Positions 2,768 to 13,826 of a DNA stretch of 64,000 nucleotides are shown piece after piece; position 1 is the first letter of the stretch; the number at the start of each line of letters is the position of its first letter. The position numbers and the translations under genes are program-made. The DNA lies in contig NZ_CP027706.1 in NCBI RefSeq assembly GCF_003850565.1, positions 3,410,001 through 3,474,000 on the forward strand. Reading direction: 5' to 3'. The stretch is from Pseudomonas sessilinigenes. Lineage in GTDB: Bacteria > Pseudomonadota > Gammaproteobacteria > Pseudomonadales > Pseudomonadaceae. The notes beneath the pieces were generated by a model that saw nothing but the letters and a program-made list of their open reading frames with translations, was not told the origin of the DNA and did not search any database.

Positions 2768-3274
2768 TCACACAGGAATATCGTCATCAAACCCATTGCC
2801 GTATTGGCTCAGGTCGTCAGTGTGTTGTACTGGTTGTTGGGCTGGGTTCTGCTGGCGTTCCGGTCTGCTGTTTTGCTGTGTGTTTTGCCGCTGGCCGGTA
2901 TTGCTCGATTGCGTCATGGTCACCTGGCTAACCCGGTGAGGCAGCATAGCCACACGGCTCGCTTCGACCTTCAGTGCCCAAACATCCTCCCCAGTTTCCT
3001 TGTCCTTCCATGTGTCCATGATGGCTCGCCCCGTGACGACGACTCGCATGCCTTTGCAGAACAATTGAGCAAACCGCTCAGCATCGGGATGCCACCATTC
3101 AACGTTCGCCCAAAAACCACCGCGGTCCTTGTAGCCCCCGGCGCCGTCGGGGATCGAGTTGTCGAACATCACATTCAACCGCAGCAATTGCCGCGGCTCG
3201 TTGTTGCCGTTGGGGAAGGATTTGTGTTCCGGCGGATTGCCGATGTTGCCTTCCCAGACTACGGGAGTACCCAT
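2768..3274 (-). CDS. ssb: ICE single-stranded DNA-binding protein
   Basis: This is a 168-residue protein. It has an N-terminal OB-fold region (GNIGNPPEHKSF, VANVEWWHPDAERF-like core, MRVVVTGRAI) followed by a low-complexity Q/N/P-rich linker and an acidic tip ending DDDIPV. It coats single-stranded DNA during ICE replication or transfer. The tip normally ends DDDIPF; here the last residue is Val (codon GTG), which is read directly. I chose the ATG at 3274 because GGAGA lies 7 bases upstream; an open frame continues to 3502 but has no support. It is followed by the small gene at 2402 and preceded by DUF3158, 14 bases away. Confidence 0.9.
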   Translation of the reverse strand: MGTPVVWEGNIGNPPEHKSFPNGNNEPRQLLRLNVMFDNSIPDGAGGYKDRGGFWANVEWWHPDAERFAQLFCKGMRVVVTGRAIMDTWKDKETGEDVWALKVEASRVAMLPHRVSQVTMTQSSNTGQRQNTQQNSRPERQQNPAQQPVQHTDDLSQYGNGFDDDIPV

Positions 3275-3288
3275 GGTTGAATCTCCGA

Positions 3289-3834
3289 TCAGTTGTGTTG
3301 GTTTTGGTTGGTGAGCTGCTGCAGTCGAGCTAGATATTCGGCCTCGGCCTGGCCCATCTTTGTTGCGCACTCGGCGGCCTGCTTGCCGATGAAATGGACA
3401 AGGCTGATTTGCATATTCAAGGTGATTCGGTGTTGCTCCAGGGCAAGCAGGTCCTGCAGCAAGTTGGCTGGTGTCTTGGGGTGTTGAACCATTGCCGCCC
3501 ATACACCGAACCCCATGCGCCGGTCTTGAACGCTTTGCCAGCGCAGGAAAGTTGTGCCAGCCGATGTGTTCTGCTCGATGAGTCGAACGGGTAGAAGGGC
3601 GAATGGATGTTCGCGGACCTGGGCCAGCACCTCATGAACTAGAGCGCGCAAACCTGCCTCCAGTGCTGTGCATTGCTCGGCTAACTGGTCCAGCTCCCCC
3701 TTACCTTTAAAGGGCTTTAAAAGGCCTTTTAGTGAGGCACCTTGTTGCAGCCCCTGATAGGCACCCTGTTGCAGAGGTTTGAAGGCACCCTGTTGCAGGT
3801 TTCCCAAGGCGCGGCCACCGATGCTTTGGGTCAT
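3289..3834 (-). CDS. DUF3158 family ICE protein
   Basis: This is a 181-residue protein with the character of the DUF3158 family found in PFGI-1-type integrating elements. The N-terminus is a short repeat series built on LQQGA (three units in residues 14-34), then a helical body with GKGELDQLAEQCTALEAGLRAL and a C-terminal LARLQQLTNQNQ tail. The ATG overlaps the stop of the PFL_4669 gene in an ATGA junction, so the two are translationally coupled. Function is unknown in the family. It sits next to ssb, which hints at a role in DNA processing (inference only). Confidence 0.8.
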   Translation of the reverse strand: MTQSIGGRALGNLQQGAFKPLQQGAYQGLQQGASLKGLLKPFKGKGELDQLAEQCTALEAGLRALVHEVLAQVREHPFALLPVRLIEQNTSAGTTFLRWQSVQDRRMGFGVWAAMVQHPKTPANLLQDLLALEQHRITLNMQISLVHFIGKQAAECATKMGQAEAEYLARLQQLTNQNQHN

Positions 3835-4568
3835 TCCTCACCTTCATCAAAAGGCTCAGCTTCGAGTCGTTCGGACAAGGTCGGTTGGCCACGTCGGATC
3901 TCGGGCGCGAAGGACGAGCGGCGAGTCCCTTCAAGGATGTCTTGAGGGATCTCGCCGGCCCGTTGGTACATCTGCCGGGCCTGCTCTGCCCGGGCGTTAT
4001 TGGCTGCGAAGTCATCGCGGCTTGCACCTGAGAAACGATATTGCTGGGCCAGTCCAAACAGGCTGCGCAGGATATGAGCCCCGTCATCGATCCAGACTTC
4101 GCCATCCCGTCTACCAATCAGACCGACATGCTTGGCCAGCAGAATGCGGCGCACGATCTCGTCGTATTTGGTCAGCAGGTAGACCGACTTGAAGCCCAGG
4201 GGGTTGGAGATGAAGAGGGGCAGTTTCATGGGGTGAGTCGACAGGTTGGTGCCGATGTCGATCATGGCCGGTAGCTGAGCCATGACATCATCGAGGCGCT
4301 TATCGATCTCTGTCAGGGCTGCATCAGACTCGGCGATCTTGTCTTCAATCCGGATGATCCACCAGTCCGAAAATGGGTCGTCCTGACTGGCACCACGGTC
4401 CATCTGATTGACTCTGGAGCAGAAGCCGGCGAGCCCAAGGATGCTGTTCTTGGATTCGCTTTGCTGGCGTCCCAGCCAGATCCTTGCAGCGTGGTGCGTG
4501 TGAAGGGTCAGTTGAACCTGGCTCCGAAGGGAGCCGATGTTGAGCTGAAAGTTGTCAGCCATGGGCAT
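3831..4568 (-). CDS. PFL_4669 family integrating conjugative element protein
   Basis: This 245-residue protein is of the type named after PFL_4669 of the Pf-5 island PFGI-1 (TIGR03761). Recognisable stretches are SILGLAGFCSRVNQM, DDPFSDWWIIRIEDKI and YDEIVRRILLAKHVGLIGRR. The C-terminus carries a Q-P-T-L-S-E-R segment. The family occurs only in integrating elements and has no known activity. The start at 4568 has AGGA a few bases upstream; an ATG two codons later is equally possible. The gene lies directly downstream of the 99-bp repeat array. Confidence 0.85.
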   Translation of the reverse strand: MPMADNFQLNIGSLRSQVQLTLHTHHAARIWLGRQQSESKNSILGLAGFCSRVNQMDRGASQDDPFSDWWIIRIEDKIAESDAALTEIDKRLDDVMAQLPAMIDIGTNLSTHPMKLPLFISNPLGFKSVYLLTKYDEIVRRILLAKHVGLIGRRDGEVWIDDGAHILRSLFGLAQQYRFSGASRDDFAANNARAEQARQMYQRAGEIPQDILEGTRRSSFAPEIRRGQPTLSERLEAEPFDEGEE

Positions 4569-5021
4569 GGATTCCTTGAATAAGGTGGGGAAGCCAGCCC
4601 ATGCTGCTTTTGTAGGGATGCGCGTGCAGTAGTAAATGGATAGCCGAGGTGTTTTGGTTTTGGGGATTGGCGTGTGAGTGTGTCGTGCCCCTTTCCACTG
4701 GAACGCTCAGCAGATTCCGGTCTTGGTGAGCTGTTGCGGGCCGCAACACTTGCTTGGCACCGGTGGCCGACTTTGGCAGCGTTGCCAGTGGTACCACTGG
4801 AGCGCTCAGCAGATTCCGGTCCTGGTGGAGTGTTGCGGGCCGCAACACTTTGTCGGCGCCGATGGTTGCCCCGGCCAGTGTTGCCAGTGGCAACACCGGA
4901 GCGCTCAGTAGATTCCGGTCCTGGTGAAGTGTTGCGGCCCGCAACACTTGCGAAGGCTCGATGACCGACACTGATCACCGATATCACTGACAGTAGTGAA
5001 TCGCTTATCAAGGCTATGTCC
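4569..5021. other. Gene-free ICE region holding the 99-bp repeat array
   Basis: Between the replication gene and the PFL_4669 gene there is no supported gene. Open frames on both strands here are artefacts of GC-rich palindromes repeated in phase (99 is divisible by 3). The stretch contains three repeat units (4700-4950) plus two further perfect palindromes in the spacers: CCAGTGGTACCACTGG at 4785-4800, and the pair of arms GTGTTGCC/GGCAACAC at 4878-4896. Confidence 0.8.
4700..4950. repeat. Three-unit 99-bp tandem array with 19-bp palindromes (candidate parS/oriV)
   Basis: Unit cores begin at 4700, 4799 and 4898. Each has a leader (GGAGCGCTCAG, then GATTCCGGTC) followed 40 bp on by the palindrome GTGTTGCGG-S-CCGCAACAC, centred at 4740, 4839 and 4938, exactly 99 bp apart. 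Unit 1 has one arm mismatch (CTGTTGCGG). About 46 bp of each period is variable. Such arrays are typical of centromere sites for ParB or of initiator-binding iterons. pKLC102 has a known repeat-type oriV, though I cannot say these are homologous. The assignment to ParB or Rep is inference. Confidence 0.9.
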
Positions 5022-6293
5022 TCACTCACTACGTCTACTACCGCGGATATTCAGCAGTTTCTGTAAGCCACTTAGCGCCAGTTGGGCAGCCTGAGTCGCC
5101 TCAGGGGTTGGAGGAATGCTCGGTGTAACTTCCGTCGGCAGGGCAGTGGTGGGAGGGGCTGCTGGAGCTACGATTGGCTGCCAGTCAGAGTTGAAGTCCC
5201 CACGTTTTGCTTTGTCAGCCAGGGTCTTGAGGTAGGCCAAGGGCTTGCTCAGTCCGCCCACTTGGCATCTGTGGGACCACTGGTTGATCACTGCATCGCG
5301 TAATGGCTCAGGTACTGACTGCATGATCACTCGAACTTTCCCTCGAGTGTCAGGTGGCAGCGATTCGAGAGCGATGAGCCAATTCGCGCCGATGGAGTCT
5401 TGATCTTGTACAAAGCTTTTAGATACAGACTTGTTTGTATTTGTATACGTACTATATGAGTTCGGATTCCGAACTGAGTCCGAACTCGGCTGTTTTCCAC
5501 TGAGTTCGGAATCCGAACTGAGGGGTAGAGCGGTCTGTTTTCCTGAGTTTTCACTGAGTTCGGAATCCGAACTCAGGCCAGACGCGGCAATATCTAACTG
5601 AGTTCGGATTCCGAACTCAGGTGCAGGAATCGCTTCAAGCTGACTTTTTACTGCCCAAGGTTGTGCGTTTAGCCGATCGCTTATGGTCTCGATGCGAGAG
5701 GGAAGACGGCGGCCGACATCCGCATCATCGGTGAACTCTCGCCAGGTCATTGCTGCGACTTCTTGGATCGCTCTGTTCTGATGTTCTTTAGACTGCATGA
5801 GCAATGTCATGTAGTCCTTATCGAACTCCAAGGCTTCGGCTGGCGTGACTGGTTCGTCATGCAGTAGATAAACGTTACCCTGCACCTGACCGCTGATCTC
5901 GTTGCGTACCTTGCGGCCAAGGCTCAACCACCTAGTAAGCCGAAGAACAGTCAGTGCCTTCGCAACGGTTTCACGTGAGGCATGTTTACCAGGTGTCATT
6001 CCAAGATATGGACGAAGTTGGTCATATGTTGGAAAGGCGGTTATGCCGTCTTCATTGATGAGCAAGCGAAACACTTGCCAGCAATTCCGCTCCAACGGAG
6101 TTAAACGGTCATCTAGAAGGAGTTTGCGCGGTACGGTTTCGTGCGGGTTACCACTAAAAATAATGCCCGCGTAGGTAGTCGGTGATGCGGTGTTGAGAGC
6201 GACATCTTCAGCTTTCTTTTTCAGCAGGTGTGCCTCGAGGTGACCCGAGGCAGAATCGAGTAGCGTAGAAATGGGGAACCGAGCAAGCTTCAT
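5022..6293 (-). CDS. STY4528-type ICE replication initiator
   Basis: This 423-residue protein resembles the STY4528 family of pathogenicity-island replication proteins. The N-terminal third has the signature IIFSGNPHETVPRKLLLDDR, then LTPLERNCWQVFRLL and a winged-helix-like region (FPTYDQLRPYLG, ASRETVAKALTVLRLTRW). Residues about 225-290 are low complexity (SSDSELS repeats) and coincide with DNA palindromes. The C-terminal region is a separate helical part (TRGKVRVIMQSVPEPLRDAVI). The expected role is origin binding and helicase recruitment for autonomous replication of the excised ICE. Its ATG overlaps the DUF2857 stop (ATGA). Confidence 0.8.
   Translation of the reverse strand: MKLARFPISTLLDSASGHLEAHLLKKKAEDVALNTASPTTYAGIIFSGNPHETVPRKLLLDDRLTPLERNCWQVFRLLINEDGITAFPTYDQLRPYLGMTPGKHASRETVAKALTVLRLTRWLSLGRKVRNEISGQVQGNVYLLHDEPVTPAEALEFDKDYMTLLMQSKEHQNRAIQEVAAMTWREFTDDADVGRRLPSRIETISDRLNAQPWAVKSQLEAIPAPEFGIRTQLDIAASGLSSDSELSENSGKQTALPLSSDSELSGKQPSSDSVRNPNSYSTYTNTNKSVSKSFVQDQDSIGANWLIALESLPPDTRGKVRVIMQSVPEPLRDAVINQWSHRCQVGGLSKPLAYLKTLADKAKRGDFNSDWQPIVAPAAPPTTALPTEVTPSIPPTPEATQAAQLALSGLQKLLNIRGSRRSE
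5457..5620. repeat. Four intragenic iteron-like palindromes in the replication gene
   Basis: The 17-bp sequence AGTTCGGA-W-TCCGAACT occurs perfectly at 5459-5475, 5503-5519, 5557-5573 and 5601-5617 (centres 5467, 5511, 5565, 5609; spacings 44, 54, 44). An extra half-site, GTCCGAACT, sits at about 5477-5485. The copies are read in different frames of the host gene (PEFGIRTQL; LSSDSELS twice; SVRNPNS), so the conservation is at DNA level. An AT-rich tract (5400-5458) adjoins them. This is the plan of a lambda-type origin; function as oriV is inferred. Confidence 0.9.
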
Positions 6294-6916
6294 TGCGTAT
6301 GTTCGCCTTGCTCAAGTCGCCTCGCTTGCCGATCTCGATGGTTGTTCTCGGGGTAGATGCGGTTTTCAATCCAGTGGGTAATGAAGGACCAGATCTGGGC
6401 CAGTGTTAACCCGTCAGCGATTAACTCTTCCGCTACCAGCATTGCAATATCGAGCATGGCCAGGCTGTCCTCTAGCGAAACCTGGTTTTGCTTCATCAAG
6501 TTAGTCCAGCGATACCAGATCTGATGTTCCTGATCCTCGGATACTGCCGGCCATCGGCCATGTGGGGCTTTGACGCCGATCACTGCTCTCTGCAACGCAA
6601 TTTCCTGCGGCGAGAGCCCAAAGAAGTTTTTGAGTAACTTGGTGGTCGCACCCAAACGAATTGCACGTTCAATAACGCGCGCTTCTTCTTCAGTCCGAGC
6701 TGCATTCGACAGCAGCTTCTGAATCATTGAACTGTTGATGCTGACGTTTACCCAGGTGACCGGCGTATTGCGAAGTAGGCTCAGCACTGTCGGGTGCTGG
6801 ATCTGGCCCAGCACCTCAGGTTCTAACCCCATTTCCCTACAACGTTGCAACTGGCCGTTGCGCACCAGGTCGAGAAGCTGAGACAGAACAGCCTCATTGA
6901 TCGTTGACTTGGTCAT
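6290..6916 (-). CDS. DUF2857 family ICE protein
   Basis: This 208-residue protein has the character of DUF2857 proteins, which sit between parB and the replication gene in this ICE class. It is mainly helical, with MTKSTINEAVLSQLLDLV at the start, LKNFFGLSPQEIALQRAVIG in the middle (a possible helix-turn-helix) and LAQIWSFITHWIENRIYP near the end. I chose the ATG at 6916 because GGAGGGGG lies 5 bases before it; an ATG six codons upstream lacks such a site. Its stop overlaps the initiator start, so the two are probably made in fixed ratio. Function unknown. Confidence 0.8.
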   Translation of the reverse strand: MTKSTINEAVLSQLLDLVRNGQLQRCREMGLEPEVLGQIQHPTVLSLLRNTPVTWVNVSINSSMIQKLLSNAARTEEEARVIERAIRLGATTKLLKNFFGLSPQEIALQRAVIGVKAPHGRWPAVSEDQEHQIWYRWTNLMKQNQVSLEDSLAMLDIAMLVAEELIADGLTLAQIWSFITHWIENRIYPENNHRDRQARRLEQGEHTQ

Positions 6917-6959
6917 GGACCCCCTCCTATTCATCCCATCCGGATTGTCCGGCCCTGGC

Positions 6960-8633
6960 CTACGCGGACTGCTTGATCTCGATGTCGATCAATCGGCGTG
7001 CAAGTCGGATGATTCTGAAAAGCTTCACTAGAGCGCCGTCGTTAATGCGACCTTGATCGTGAGGCTCAATATCTTTTGTTGATGGCTGACCGATGAGCAG
7101 TTGGCCCAGACCAGCTGCAAACTCAAAGTCTTCCAACGAGCTCAAGTCCGCATCAGGACTCTCCCTGATCATTTGCAATGCGATTGAAACTGCCCCGCTT
7201 AACGACTGGAGGAGGGTCATGGTGTGCACAGCCGTGGCAGTGACTTCAGACTCCTCAGTTGGCTGTCTATAGGAATATCCAATGCCGGCTGGAATTTCGG
7301 TAATTTGCCCTGGGGCATTCACCGACTCTTGAATCTCCAACGCCAGCTGTGCGATGTGTTTTCTGAGCTGTTCCGACGAATCAATCTCGCGTTCGATGTA
7401 CCAGAGGTCACTGATCGGGTTGAGCCCGCCTGCTTGCACGGGAATCGATTGAAGGCAGTTGGAGTTGAAGTCGGGTAACTGCTCACCTTCGATTGCGGCC
7501 AGCTTCTTTTTCATCTCGATAACTCGAGCAGTCTGTGTAACGGGCGAGGCTATATGTCCATCTATACGAGCCTGCATCTCGGGTGAAGGAGATCCAGGCT
7601 CGTTTGGACCAGAATTCGACTGGCTGGTATTTTGGCGAGAGGGTTGATTGTTTCCTGGGGCAGTGGATCCTTGAGGGGAGGGTGCCGGTTTCTCGCTCGG
7701 CGCCGACTGCAGAAGACCTGCGGCTGGCAAGGGGTCATTTGTTGGCAATTGGACAACTGGGGTGGATCGACGTAGCTGATCTTGCTGCTGAGTGATTTCT
7801 AGGAGGATGTCTTCGTATCCCAGCGGCAGGGACTTCTTCATCGTTCCGATCAATTCGTCTTGGAAGCGTTGATACAGGAACTCCTCTGCCTCTCCTTCGA
7901 ACTGAGCAAGTACATCCTGGAAGAGCATCTCGAAGTCAACACCCTCGCCTGTGTAGTGTTTTTCCCAACATGTGAAACTAGTTTTGCGAAGACTCAAAAT
8001 TTTGGTAATCCGGTCAACACCTAAACCGGAGTACAAGAGTCCTGGTATGGAGGGGAGGAGGTGTTGAAGAGTGTCAAGCATCCTACTGACATGTGAGGCG
8101 GAAATTGGATAGCCATCTTTTGCCAGCCGGCGTGACAACTCTCGAACCCCGATAGGCTCCCCTGATTCTGATTCGTACAGAGCTTTAGCTCGGCCAACCC
8201 CAACTGCACGTTCGATGAACTTGAGCTCGCCCTTCAGGTCCTCGGCCAAATGGCCCGTGAGCATGACGATCTCACCTCGAGCCTGGTCCCATGGCCTAAA
8301 CAGCAGATTGATCCGGTAATACTGCTCATCACCGGTTTCCTGGTAGAGCTCTTTCAGAATTGAGATGCGAGTATTACCGCCGTTGCGGATCCGATACTTC
8401 TCCTCACCTGGTCGACGAGTTACGGGTGGAGGTGTGTCCAGCCCCCGATTGCGGATCGACTCCTTGATCTCGTCATACTTCGGGTTACGGGTCGTCCTTG
8501 GGTTGTCCTCCCAAGGCAGTACCTCATCGATGGTAGCCACGATTGGAGTATCGGCTAAGGGATCGCTGAGGACCGTTGTAGCAGCAGAAGGGGAGAAACC
8601 CGGGGCTAATAGCCGTGCTTTAAGATCTGTCAC
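6960..8633 (-). CDS. parB: PFGI-1 class ParB family partition protein
   Basis: This 557-residue protein begins with GTG directly after the stop of the upstream ribbon-helix-helix gene. The N-terminal ParB/Srx-like region has VLPWEDNPRTTRNPKYDEI and IRNGGNTRISILKEL. A helix-turn-helix follows (VRELSRRLAKDGYPISASHV, about residues 160-185). A proline/serine-rich linker (about 300-355) separates a long C-terminal domain specific to the ICE class. ParB marks the centromere and works with the ParA ATPase at 16199-17071. The 19-bp palindrome array at 4700-4950 is a candidate target. It is much longer than chromosomal ParB (about 290 residues). Confidence 0.85.
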   Translation of the reverse strand: MTDLKARLLAPGFSPSAATTVLSDPLADTPIVATIDEVLPWEDNPRTTRNPKYDEIKESIRNRGLDTPPPVTRRPGEEKYRIRNGGNTRISILKELYQETGDEQYYRINLLFRPWDQARGEIVMLTGHLAEDLKGELKFIERAVGVGRAKALYESESGEPIGVRELSRRLAKDGYPISASHVSRMLDTLQHLLPSIPGLLYSGLGVDRITKILSLRKTSFTCWEKHYTGEGVDFEMLFQDVLAQFEGEAEEFLYQRFQDELIGTMKKSLPLGYEDILLEITQQQDQLRRSTPVVQLPTNDPLPAAGLLQSAPSEKPAPSPQGSTAPGNNQPSRQNTSQSNSGPNEPGSPSPEMQARIDGHIASPVTQTARVIEMKKKLAAIEGEQLPDFNSNCLQSIPVQAGGLNPISDLWYIEREIDSSEQLRKHIAQLALEIQESVNAPGQITEIPAGIGYSYRQPTEESEVTATAVHTMTLLQSLSGAVSIALQMIRESPDADLSSLEDFEFAAGLGQLLIGQPSTKDIEPHDQGRINDGALVKLFRIIRLARRLIDIEIKQSA

Positions 8634-11640: not shown

Positions 11641-11818
11641 CTAACACCTCCTGCAGTGGCTCGACGTCGTAGCTATTGCACAGTGGGCAGATCCACACCT
11701 CGGTCTCATCACAAAATTTGTGTGGCTCTGGAAGCCAGTGCTGAACTTGCTTGAGGGAGTGATGTGTGTTGCATGATCGGCACCAGTGAGTGGGTGCGCT
11801 TATGCTTTGCGAGGTCAT
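11630..11818 (-). CDS. Small zinc-ribbon protein
   Basis: This is a 62-residue protein with two CxxC knuckles: CRSCNTHH near residue 13 and CPLCNSYD near residue 45. A linker with a further Cys (KFCDETEVWIC) lies between them. This is a rubredoxin-like zinc ribbon suited to nucleic-acid or protein contacts. AAGGAGG sits 5 bases before the ATG. The ATG overlaps the dnaB stop (ATGA), so it is translated right after the helicase. Small zinc-ribbon genes of this kind are common in phages and ICEs, without assigned roles. Confidence 0.75.
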   Translation of the reverse strand: MTSQSISAPTHWCRSCNTHHSLKQVQHWLPEPHKFCDETEVWICPLCNSYDVEPLQEVLDEK

Positions 11819-13164
11819 GCGCAGCCTCCTTGCCAACTGGCAGGGGCCAGATTTTCGAAGCGAGTCTGCTGTGGGATGAAAGCCGCCCGTGCAAAACCGA
11901 CCGGGCCCTGACGTTGTTTGCCGATGATGATTTCGGCGATGCCTTTATGCTCGGACTCCGGGTGGTAATACTCATCTCGGTAAACGAACATGATCACGTC
12001 AGCGTCTTGTTCAATAGCACCGCTTTCGCGCAAATCAGCGTTGACTGGGCGTTTATTTGGACGTCCCTCAACACTCCGGTTGAGTTGAGAGAGGGCAATA
12101 ACTGGGCAGTCCATTTCTTTGCCAAGCGCTTTCAGTGAACGAGAAATCACACTGATTTCGTTGTTCCTGTTTTCCTCACCTACCGCGCTCATTAGCTGCA
12201 GGTAGTCGATGAGGATCAGCTTTGGCTTGCCGAAGCGCCGGCTTGCCCTCCTGGCCTTTGCCCGCAGCGCAGGTGGGGTCAGTGAGCTGCCGTCATCAAT
12301 TACCAGCCTATCCCCGAAGCCATTAAGCTGCTGGACTGCATTTGTTAGCTTCGGCCAATCCTCATCCTCAAGCTTCCCCTTTAAGAGCTTGGTCAGATCT
12401 ACGTGGCCGATACTGGAGATCAAACGAAATAGCAGGGCCTGGGCCGGCATTTCGATGCTGTAGACCTGGACCGATTCATTGTCTGAGCATTGACGTAAAG
12501 CCGCGTGGACGAACTTCAAGGCTAGAGCCGTTTTTCCCATCGACGGCCTGCCGGCAAGAATGATGAGGTCGGTCGGTTGAAAACCTGAGGTCATCTCGTC
12601 AAGATCGTCGATTCCGGACGACACTCCGGTCACAGTCACATTCCCGTTGAAATGCTCGTCAATCTTGTTGATCACCTCTCCGAGGGCTTGGTTGACGTCG
12701 ACGAAGTCGGAGCGTGTTCTGTTCTGAGCGAGTGCAAAGAGTTGCTGCTCGATCGATTCCTGGACGTCAGTAGCTACTGCCGTGCTTTCAGCGGCGTCGC
12801 GAGAGCATTGGTAGCCGAGGGACATGAGGCTGCGCAGGTGAGACCTGTTCCGAACGATTTCTGCGTAGCGTTCGATGTTGGCCACAGATGGAGTATTTCT
12901 TGCGAGATCTCCAAGGTAGGCCAGGCCACCAACTTCCTCTGGTTGAGACATCGACTCGGATACCGTCACGATATCGAATGGATGATCCTTATCGGCTAGT
13001 GAGGCGATGGCCTGGAAAATCAACCGATGCTCACGTTTGAAGAAGTCTTCAGGCACAAGCAGGTCGGCAATGAGATCCCATGTATTGTTGTCGAGCATCA
13101 GACCGCCCAGGACACCCTGTTCGGCTTCAGTCGAATGAGGCGGCGTAAAGTCGAGAGGGTTCAC
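11815..13164 (-). CDS. dnaB: ICE-encoded replicative DNA helicase DnaB
   Basis: This 449-residue protein is full length for DnaB. The N-terminal domain starts at PPHSTEAEQGVLGGLM and includes DFFKREHRLIFQAI. The RecA-like C-terminal domain has Walker A GRPSMGKT at 205-212, YSIEMPAQAL (DnaB 'LEM' region), Walker B-type LILIDYLQLM, ALSQLNRSVEGR and the DLRESGAIEQDAD arginine-finger region. It unwinds DNA at forks as a hexamer. The gene starts with GTG preceded by GGAGGTCACTCC and overlaps the previous stop. No separate helicase loader is recognised in the window, so the initiator protein may recruit it directly (inference). Confidence 0.93.
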   Translation of the reverse strand: MNPLDFTPPHSTEAEQGVLGGLMLDNNTWDLIADLLVPEDFFKREHRLIFQAIASLADKDHPFDIVTVSESMSQPEEVGGLAYLGDLARNTPSVANIERYAEIVRNRSHLRSLMSLGYQCSRDAAESTAVATDVQESIEQQLFALAQNRTRSDFVDVNQALGEVINKIDEHFNGNVTVTGVSSGIDDLDEMTSGFQPTDLIILAGRPSMGKTALALKFVHAALRQCSDNESVQVYSIEMPAQALLFRLISSIGHVDLTKLLKGKLEDEDWPKLTNAVQQLNGFGDRLVIDDGSSLTPPALRAKARRASRRFGKPKLILIDYLQLMSAVGEENRNNEISVISRSLKALGKEMDCPVIALSQLNRSVEGRPNKRPVNADLRESGAIEQDADVIMFVYRDEYYHPESEHKGIAEIIIGKQRQGPVGFARAAFIPQQTRFENLAPASWQGGCA

Positions 13165-13826
13165 GGAGTGACCTCCCGGCGTGCCCAGAAGCAGTAGGGG
13201 CCGCCTTCTTCAGTGTCATGAATAGCCAGGCAGAACCAGCCCTCGCCGGCAGGCATAGAGGGCTCCCAGTAACTGCAGTCGGGACTATCAGAAGCGAAGT
13301 AGCGATCGGCAATTTCTTCAGGCGCGTCTGTTTCAAGACTGACTGAACAGATTTCTAGGCCTTGCTCCTGCAGCCAGAGTTTGGATTTGTCAGGATCTTC
13401 TTCAAAGTTTGGCAGGTCGGGATGGGCGAACATCCCCTCTTCATCCCGCTGAACAGGGTAGGGCTGGATCAACTGTATCCGATCGAGTCGCTCGATCTCT
13501 GCAAGGATTAGAGCCCCCGCTTTCACTAAGTCGCGGCGACGGTCATCGCTGGGTTTGAATGTCTTTTTGTCCCATGGCCAGGCACTGCTGCTGCATCCAG
13601 GCTTTCCTGCCAAGACTGCGTACACCGCAGCGGCTTCTGCCAGCTCGTTTCGCACATACACGTCATCACGATGGATGGAGTAGCCTTCCTCTGTCACCTG
13701 GCGGTGACGCTCTGTGATCACGCTGTGTGCTGCCTTGTTCATACGAAGACCTTCGGGCATGGTGCATCCCCTCAGTGCATGGGAGGTTGGGAGCAGAGCT
13801 GGATGGGCTGTTGTGGTGTGAGTCAT
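13161..13826 (-). CDS. Phage/ICE protein with an ERxRQ-EGY-type helical domain
   Basis: This is a 221-residue protein. The central part (about residues 35-115) reads ERHRQVTEEGYSIHRDD, NELAEAAAVYAV, WPWDKKTFKPSDDRRRDLVK, AGALILAEIERLDR. That is a domain often seen in phage proteins of unknown role, sometimes compared with all-alpha NTP pyrophosphohydrolases. The C-terminal 90 residues are acidic and aromatic-rich and not recognised. I chose the ATG at 13826, which overlaps the DUF2786 stop (ATGA); an upstream extension in frame has no support. Its stop overlaps the GTG of dnaB. Function is not assigned. Confidence 0.72.
   Translation of the reverse strand: MTHTTTAHPALLPTSHALRGCTMPEGLRMNKAAHSVITERHRQVTEEGYSIHRDDVYVRNELAEAAAVYAVLAGKPGCSSSAWPWDKKTFKPSDDRRRDLVKAGALILAEIERLDRIQLIQPYPVQRDEEGMFAHPDLPNFEEDPDKSKLWLQEQGLEICSVSLETDAPEEIADRYFASDSPDCSYWEPSMPAGEGWFCLAIHDTEEGGPYCFWARREVTP

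Follow-up and report, generated by a model that had tools for sequence, protein, structure and literature searches.

Where on an excised integrative and conjugative element (ICE) does replication begin, and which protein starts it? ICEs of the PFGI-1/pKLC102 group are carriers of resistance genes and catabolic genes, and the replication of their excised form is unsettled: an origin of vegetative replication (oriV) has been proposed without a Rep protein (PMC2647930), and a relaxase route has been shown in ICEclc (PMC6561031); here and below, statements on published work refer to the available excerpts of each paper. We have examined a 64,000-bp stretch of the Pseudomonas sessilinigenes genome (contig NZ_CP027706.1, positions 3,410,001 to 3,474,000 of the forward strand; the window), in which a STY4528-family gene of such an ICE contains four copies of one palindrome. 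Homologue comparisons delimit an element of 216 bp at 5406-5621 (coordinates are those of the window), and we propose with considerable confidence that it is the oriV of this PFGI-1/pKLC102-type ICE, or the core of it, and that the enclosing gene encodes the initiator. A precise 216-bp element with a candidate initiator makes the question directly testable.

A palindromic element within the STY4528-type gene

The gene and the parts of the element are as follows.

5022..6293, minus strand: STY4528-family gene (NF040582), 423 aa, candidate replication initiator
5406..5621, minus strand: candidate oriV, with constrained synonymous codons (residues 225-296; codon map of 49 aligned homologues)
5601..5617: palindrome 1, the first to be transcribed; 23 bp long when extended (5598-5620)
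5557..5573: palindrome 2; likewise 23 bp long when extended (5554-5576)
5503..5519: palindrome 3, exact match to AGTTCGGAWTCCGAACT
5459..5475: palindrome 4, exact match to AGTTCGGAWTCCGAACT
5476..5487: partial additional site GAGTCCGAACTC, from an inverted-repeat search
5400..5458, minus strand: A+T tract that follows palindrome 4, putative unwinding element; 71% A+T, codons 280-296 constrained

AGTTCGGAWTCCGAACT is a perfect 17-bp palindrome, and its four exact copies, starting at 5459, 5503, 5557 and 5601, are spaced 44-54-44 and translated in three phases (PEFGIRTQ; LSSDSELS, twice; SVRNPNS); the four copies, their spacing and the three phases are as an earlier note on this DNA had described. 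At two of the four sites, palindromes 1 and 2, the 23-bp extensions are also perfect palindromes. There is no match beyond the four sites in the window at up to three mismatches, and shuffled windows (n=100) contain a mean of 0.05 and a maximum of one. Across the 6.9-Mb genome, at up to two mismatches, AGTTCGGAWTCCGAACT is present solely as the four in-gene sites; the reversed pattern gives five near-matches, so that chance near-matches of AGTTCGGAWTCCGAACT would have been unsurprising. The A+T tract noted earlier at 5400-5458, 3' of the last palindrome in the direction of transcription, is 71% A+T compared with 48% for the gene, and the A+T content of 5406-5455 is equalled by only 0.18% of 50-bp windows in the whole 64 kb.

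The three translation phases had been taken to mean that selection must act on the DNA. Selection on the DNA is indeed evident, but the evidence is that of synonymous codons, as the frame of a site is constant across homologues: although the sites of one gene occupy three frames, each keeps its own from homologue to homologue, and the expected frame drift is not seen, with a single frame pattern in 21 of 22 four-site genes. We compared the best repeated-palindrome pair of each of 85 non-redundant homologues (from 142 matching loci, near-duplicates removed) with 200 shuffles that preserve both the protein and the codon usage, taking the more significant p value from two window lengths, without correction. 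In 65 homologues p is at its minimum of 0.005 and in six more it is <=0.05, and the repeated palindromes are not significant in the remaining 14 at 200 codon shuffles each. In one homologue (L118) the top pair sits in the C-terminal part of the gene, outside the linker described below.

Codon alignment of 71 of the 85 homologues (62 of these 71 form a further set) defines the limits of the element. The alignment was split by identity into classes of >=44% (22 homologues), 36-43% (27) and <36% (22), and no value was given to blocks or columns that had too few codons to compare. Among the 49 homologues with at least 36% identity, mean excess synonymous-codon identity per 8-codon block is 0.30-0.54 at residues 225-296, and -0.02 to 0.15 in the rest of the gene. 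The blocks of the element score 0.34-0.65 in the >=44% class, but 0.13 at spacer block 249-256, and 0.35-0.47 in the 36-43% class, which gives no value before residue 233; the <36% class has 0.16-0.44 at residues 241-296 and nil at 225-240. By part, the >=44% and 36-43% classes show 0.63 and 0.52 for palindrome codons, 0.32 and 0.33 for spacers, 0.53 and 0.45 for the A+T tract, and 0.08 and 0.10 for the remaining gene, with top 10-codon means outside the constrained block of 0.18 and 0.19, respectively. The constraint is limited to residues ~225-296, and the element is therefore about 216 bp, 5406-5621. The comparison provides strong in-silico evidence that, in two classes, the gene contains a DNA element made up of the palindromes, their spacers and the A+T tract; at the level of sequence, it shows where the element lies, its limits, its conservation as DNA and its place in the protein linker.

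Repeated palindromes recur in most of the homologues tested, although their sequence is clade-specific. The pattern STTCGGAWTCCGAAS is found at 65 places in 194 genomes, whereas the reversed control gives single matches in 9 of the 194; 50 of 51 symmetric sites are within an NF040582 gene, compared with 1 of 14 asymmetric ones. Of 22 genes with four sites, 21 have the spacing 44-54-44, and of 25 with two sites, 22 have a spacing of 44. pKLC102 has four sites spaced 44-54-44 within its own STY4528 gene (19-bp site strings starting at 13790, 13834, 13888 and 13932). Klebsiella and Serratia relatives carry the in-gene palindrome GTTCGGAAACCGAAC instead, Citrobacter the related in-gene repeat CGGGTTCGGAAACCG, ICEhin1056 GTTCCAAAANGGAAC, and further distant relatives AGGGAAAWTTTCCCT and GTTCAAAATTTGAAC, while GTTCGGNWTCCGAAC-like sites are retained in Pantoea and Erwinia at ~30% protein identity. 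Among 15 divergent homologues without a TCGG site, linker repeats are found at p<=0.05 in 11, some of them through triplet runs, and not in the other four. The STY4528 gene is interrupted by a stop codon in L028 and in Pseudomonas taeanensis (L054), and L028 retains a palindrome beyond the stop.

DnaA boxes accompany the palindromes in part of the family. TTATCCAC or its complement occurs in 22 of 71 genes, compared with a mean of 5.4 and a maximum of 11 in 60 codon shuffles. The CTTCGG class has 14 genes, and 12 of them carry a TTATNCACA box at exactly 76 bp ahead of the first palindrome core; in L101 the box is 120 bp before the sole intact core, and L115 has no DnaA box in the gene. A GTTCGG class with two sites includes seven genes whose box follows the first core of the 44-bp pair at 114 bp, and two of the 22 box-bearing genes (L030 and L031) have boxes at other positions. 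There is no TTWTNCACA DnaA box near the window element; a DnaA box is not required by all origins. In the CTTCGG class (for example L092, L102 and L006) we also note, from the alignment by eye, inverted repeats GTACNGTACGTA ... TACGTACNGTAC flanking the A+T tract.

The encoded protein and a candidate mechanism

The window protein belongs to family NF040582 (376.5 bits, cut-off 130), which is matched by all 62 collected members at E up to 0.01 and which NCBI names 'pathogenicity island replication protein'. AlphaFold2 models agree with the earlier description of separate regions, a winged helix before the sites and a further domain after them. In the predicted protein an initiator-like winged helix is joined to a helical domain at the C-terminus by a low-confidence and probably disordered linker, which the element encodes.

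5850..6146, minus strand: winged-helix domain, residues ~50-148 (AlphaFold2 models and VIA matches)
5937..5975, minus strand: predicted recognition helix, residues 107-119 (modelled helix; role assigned from its position in the winged helix)
5202..5396, minus strand: C-terminal helical domain, residues 300-364 (AlphaFold2 model)

Residue 107, the first of the presumed recognition helix, is R or K in all 41 homologues whose site has G as its outer base and H in all 14 with C, a count that omits one homologue with T and 15 without a site. This covariation fits a direct contact, but it is confounded with phylogeny, which may explain it; nine columns altogether separate the G and C classes without error.

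In Pfam the window protein has no family match at E up to 1, nor does it match any PHROG, and the sequence search of solved structures returns one weak ribosomal match only (E 0.029). Foldseek finds nothing in the PDB at E up to 0.001 with either model, and nothing among viral models at that threshold with the whole model, the best being an uncharacterized phage protein at 1.4e-3. RctB and DnaD are among the VIA structural matches to the whole model, and are absent from the 50 VIA matches listed for the N-terminal domain. When viral contigs were searched with the window protein, two stretches fitted a pattern, and neither encodes a relative.

The type of explanation that best fits these sequence comparisons is an iteron-type oriV embedded in the gene for its own initiator, with replication and binding as predictions. 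A plausible scenario is that a dimer of the winged helix would bind each palindrome and that several such bound dimers would melt the A+T tract. The C-terminal domain, jointly with DnaA in some classes, may then help to load the ICE's own DnaB on the opened DNA, after which the excised circle would replicate as a plasmid. Each element has its own site sequence and its own protein, and initiator and origin therefore travel as one unit. We lean, if less firmly, towards a broader view, that one superfamily of ICEs and plasmids across the Proteobacteria, from Haemophilus and the enterobacteria to Pseudomonas, has in common a self-contained replicon with the initiator gene as its own origin, that sites and winged helix co-diversify such that palindromes alone would reveal compatibility groups, and that STY4528 is the Rep reported missing from the PFGI-1 group. 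The family is a clean case of one stretch of DNA strongly constrained as linker code and probably as an origin, and codon changes in such genes should not be assumed to be neutral.

Published origins and alternative explanations

The earlier note knew of no description of these sites as the oriV of this ICE class, but their location is already in the literature. Mavrodi et al. (2009) placed a putative oriV of PFGI-1, in P. fluorescens Pf-5, at the same palindromes, and stated that PFGI-1 encodes no Rep protein; in the available text no Rep was linked to the site (PMC2647930). The ICE is of the same kind, with four repeats of the same 23-bp palindrome and an A+T-rich half and a G+C-rich palindrome half upstream of PFL_4669; the difference is that the excerpts available do not place the palindromes inside the gene of a candidate initiator (PMC2647930). 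An oriV with iteron-like repeats has been proposed for ICEHin1056 (PMC2258188), and that of pKLC102 is said to be postulated (PMC7685784). The papers found to use the name STY4528 mention it, in the passages available, in passing only, and our search of the open-licence literature, which may miss others, found none naming the protein as initiator of an origin within its own gene. The location as a putative oriV and the NCBI family name containing 'replication protein' are thus already known; what appears to be new, as far as searches show, is the connection with a candidate Rep, together with the precise limits of the element, its constraint map and its breadth.

The G+C-rich half of the published oriV has a counterpart just beyond the gene.

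4695..4991: three units of 99 bp that carry another palindrome (GTGTTGC...GCAACAC), counterpart of the second, G+C-rich half of the oriV proposed for PFGI-1

It is possible, though we favour it less, that oriV is larger than the in-gene element or adjacent to it, in which case this array would be the origin or an indispensable half of it, and the palindromes in the gene a part only, an arrangement compatible with an oriV inside the gene. Both halves form a single oriV of ~1,100 bp in the published proposal (PMC2647930). The array palindrome is confined to the ICE (five genome copies at up to one mismatch, including a lone extra copy at 2383-2401), and downstream palindromes recur in many relatives at spacings of 36-100 bp (often 36-39, 57-58 or 99-100), where the arms differ yet remain symmetric. 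However, at least three odd-centred palindromes (arms >=7) within 1,600 bp downstream are found at 32 of 76 loci, compared with significant in-gene palindromes in 71 of 85 homologues, and the array is G+C-rich and outside the gene. The array could instead be the centromere of the ICE ParB or an operator of AcaB.

That the in-gene palindromes are themselves operators or partition sites for another ICE protein (ParB, the Arc-type regulator or PFL_4669/AcaB) is unlikely. Perfect dyads are typical of dimeric regulators, and ParB and the Arc-type protein are encoded close by, but the spacers and the A+T tract share the constraint, DnaA boxes stand at fixed distances in two classes, and the product of the gene in which the sites sit has a winged helix like that of initiators.

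We regard it as slightly more doubtful still that relaxase and oriT are the sole means by which the excised ICE replicates, in rolling-circle fashion, and that the in-gene element is a relic or of minor importance. What speaks for this comes from ICEclc. In transfer-competent cells the copy number of ICEclc requires TraI and oriT1 and is lowered by deletion of either traI or oriT1, and no difference is seen between the oriT1 mutant and non-competent cells (P = 0.1994) (PMC6561031); an in-gene origin would therefore be at most one of two routes there. Two Pantoea plasmids (L162 and L163), which may be fusions of two replicons, hold the module together with a separate annotated replication initiation protein, and GC skew, which is uninformative here, gives no support for an origin in pKLC102, ICEhin1056, the two Pantoea plasmids or the window. 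The idea of a relic is countered by purifying selection at silent sites, seen in two classes and pointing to present use, by the foci of the ICEclc traI mutant, which still exceed those of non-competent cells (P = 0.0195), and by the authors' own mention of possible additional replication mechanisms (PMC6561031). In circular records of Citrobacter and Stutzerimonas, which could be excised ICE circles, no initiator other than STY4528 is listed apart from DnaB and a 'replication protein' of the STY4534 type, in a gene table that is incomplete. The STY4534-type protein of pKLC102, also an NCBI 'replication protein', matches only DUF3577 in Pfam and no PHROG, and therefore neither provides nor excludes a rival initiator.

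A mobile or peptide-level repeat that is palindromic by chance can be dismissed as highly improbable: the linker is low-confidence and probably disordered, hence tolerant of insertions, but the sites occupy three reading frames, the absence of copies elsewhere in the genome rules out a mobile or repetitive extragenic palindromic (REP)-type repeat, and the codon shuffles and synonymous map rule out selection on the peptide alone.

Similar systems and the surrounding module

The arrangement had been called lambda-type, and the likeness holds for the layout, with sites in the middle of the gene and an A+T tract next to them, but it is one likeness among several, as RepA_N and RepC genes also contain their own origins. 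Lambda has four sites in the middle of its initiator gene and an adjoining A+T-rich tract, and the C-terminal part of the protein serves in helicase recruitment. The window gene has the repeated in-gene sites, then the A+T tract, of lambda O and ori. It differs in that DnaB is encoded by the ICE; no equivalent of lambda P was identified, and none was sought. Two O-like PHROGs are each weakly matched by 5 of the 62 family members (best E 3.4e-5) and neither by the window protein.

Structural matches of the window protein model include 4pql and 5kbj, which we take to be RepA_N proteins. In the RepA_N plasmids of Gram-positive bacteria (pSK41) four Rep boxes lie in the middle of rep, and the protein has an N-terminal winged helix, a linker encoded by the origin and a separate C-terminal domain (PMC5703833). 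The modelled window protein would share the mid-gene sites, the N-terminal winged helix, the element-encoded linker and the separate C-terminal domain. It differs in having no Pfam match, an ICE with its own DnaB, and sites that are perfect palindromes; the likeness seen is one of layout, and the RepA_N profile does not match the window protein, nor is it among the 25 listed of the 28 Pfam families for the 62 members.

The repC gene of repABC plasmids contains an oriV with a large A+T-rich region, in which silent changes abolish replication, and no iterons or DnaA boxes are reported in the available text for that of p42d (PMC3155836), whereas the STY4528 family has repeats and, in two classes, DnaA boxes. 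The window protein does not match the RepC profile, and weak matches in the family are to PF11800 in 18 of 62 members (best E 0.0023) and NF040974 in one (0.0021). An origin inside the initiator gene has also been postulated for P1 repL.

The genes around the STY4528-type gene form a replication and partition module of the PFGI-1/pKLC102 type, in which ParB, DUF2857, STY4528, PFL_4669, DUF3158 and the single-strand-binding protein follow in order and the ICE has a DnaB. DnaB, YejK, an Arc-type regulator, ParB and DUF2857 are on one side, with PFL_4669/AcaB, DUF3158 and the single-strand-binding protein beyond STY4528.

11815..13164, minus strand: ICE DnaB helicase (TIGR00665; NF040583 590.8 bits, under its cut-off of 655)
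6960..8633, minus strand: ICE ParB (TIGR03764)
6290..6934, minus strand: DUF2857 gene, same module (PF11198)
3831..4568, minus strand: PFL_4669/AcaB-family gene (TIGR03761, PF08900)
3289..3834, minus strand: DUF3158 gene (PF11358)
2768..3502, minus strand: open reading frame with the ICE single-strand-binding protein, from the first possible start (NF006039, match from residue 77)

That the ICE encodes its own DnaB, as noted earlier, is borne out by TIGR00665 (492.8 bits, cut-off 385.25). The order of the module is the same in pKLC102 and ICEhin1056, with extra small genes between, and ICEhin1056 is without YejK and the Arc-type regulator. Among minor observations, the Arc-type ribbon-helix-helix protein at 8635-8961 matches the ICE regulator TprA at 56.9 bits, below the cut-off of 150. 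The DUF3158 gene contains a perfect 14-bp palindrome, TAAAAGGCCTTTTA, at 3718-3731, which is also present in 12 of 28 other loci, ~1-1.5 kb downstream of the STY4528 gene.
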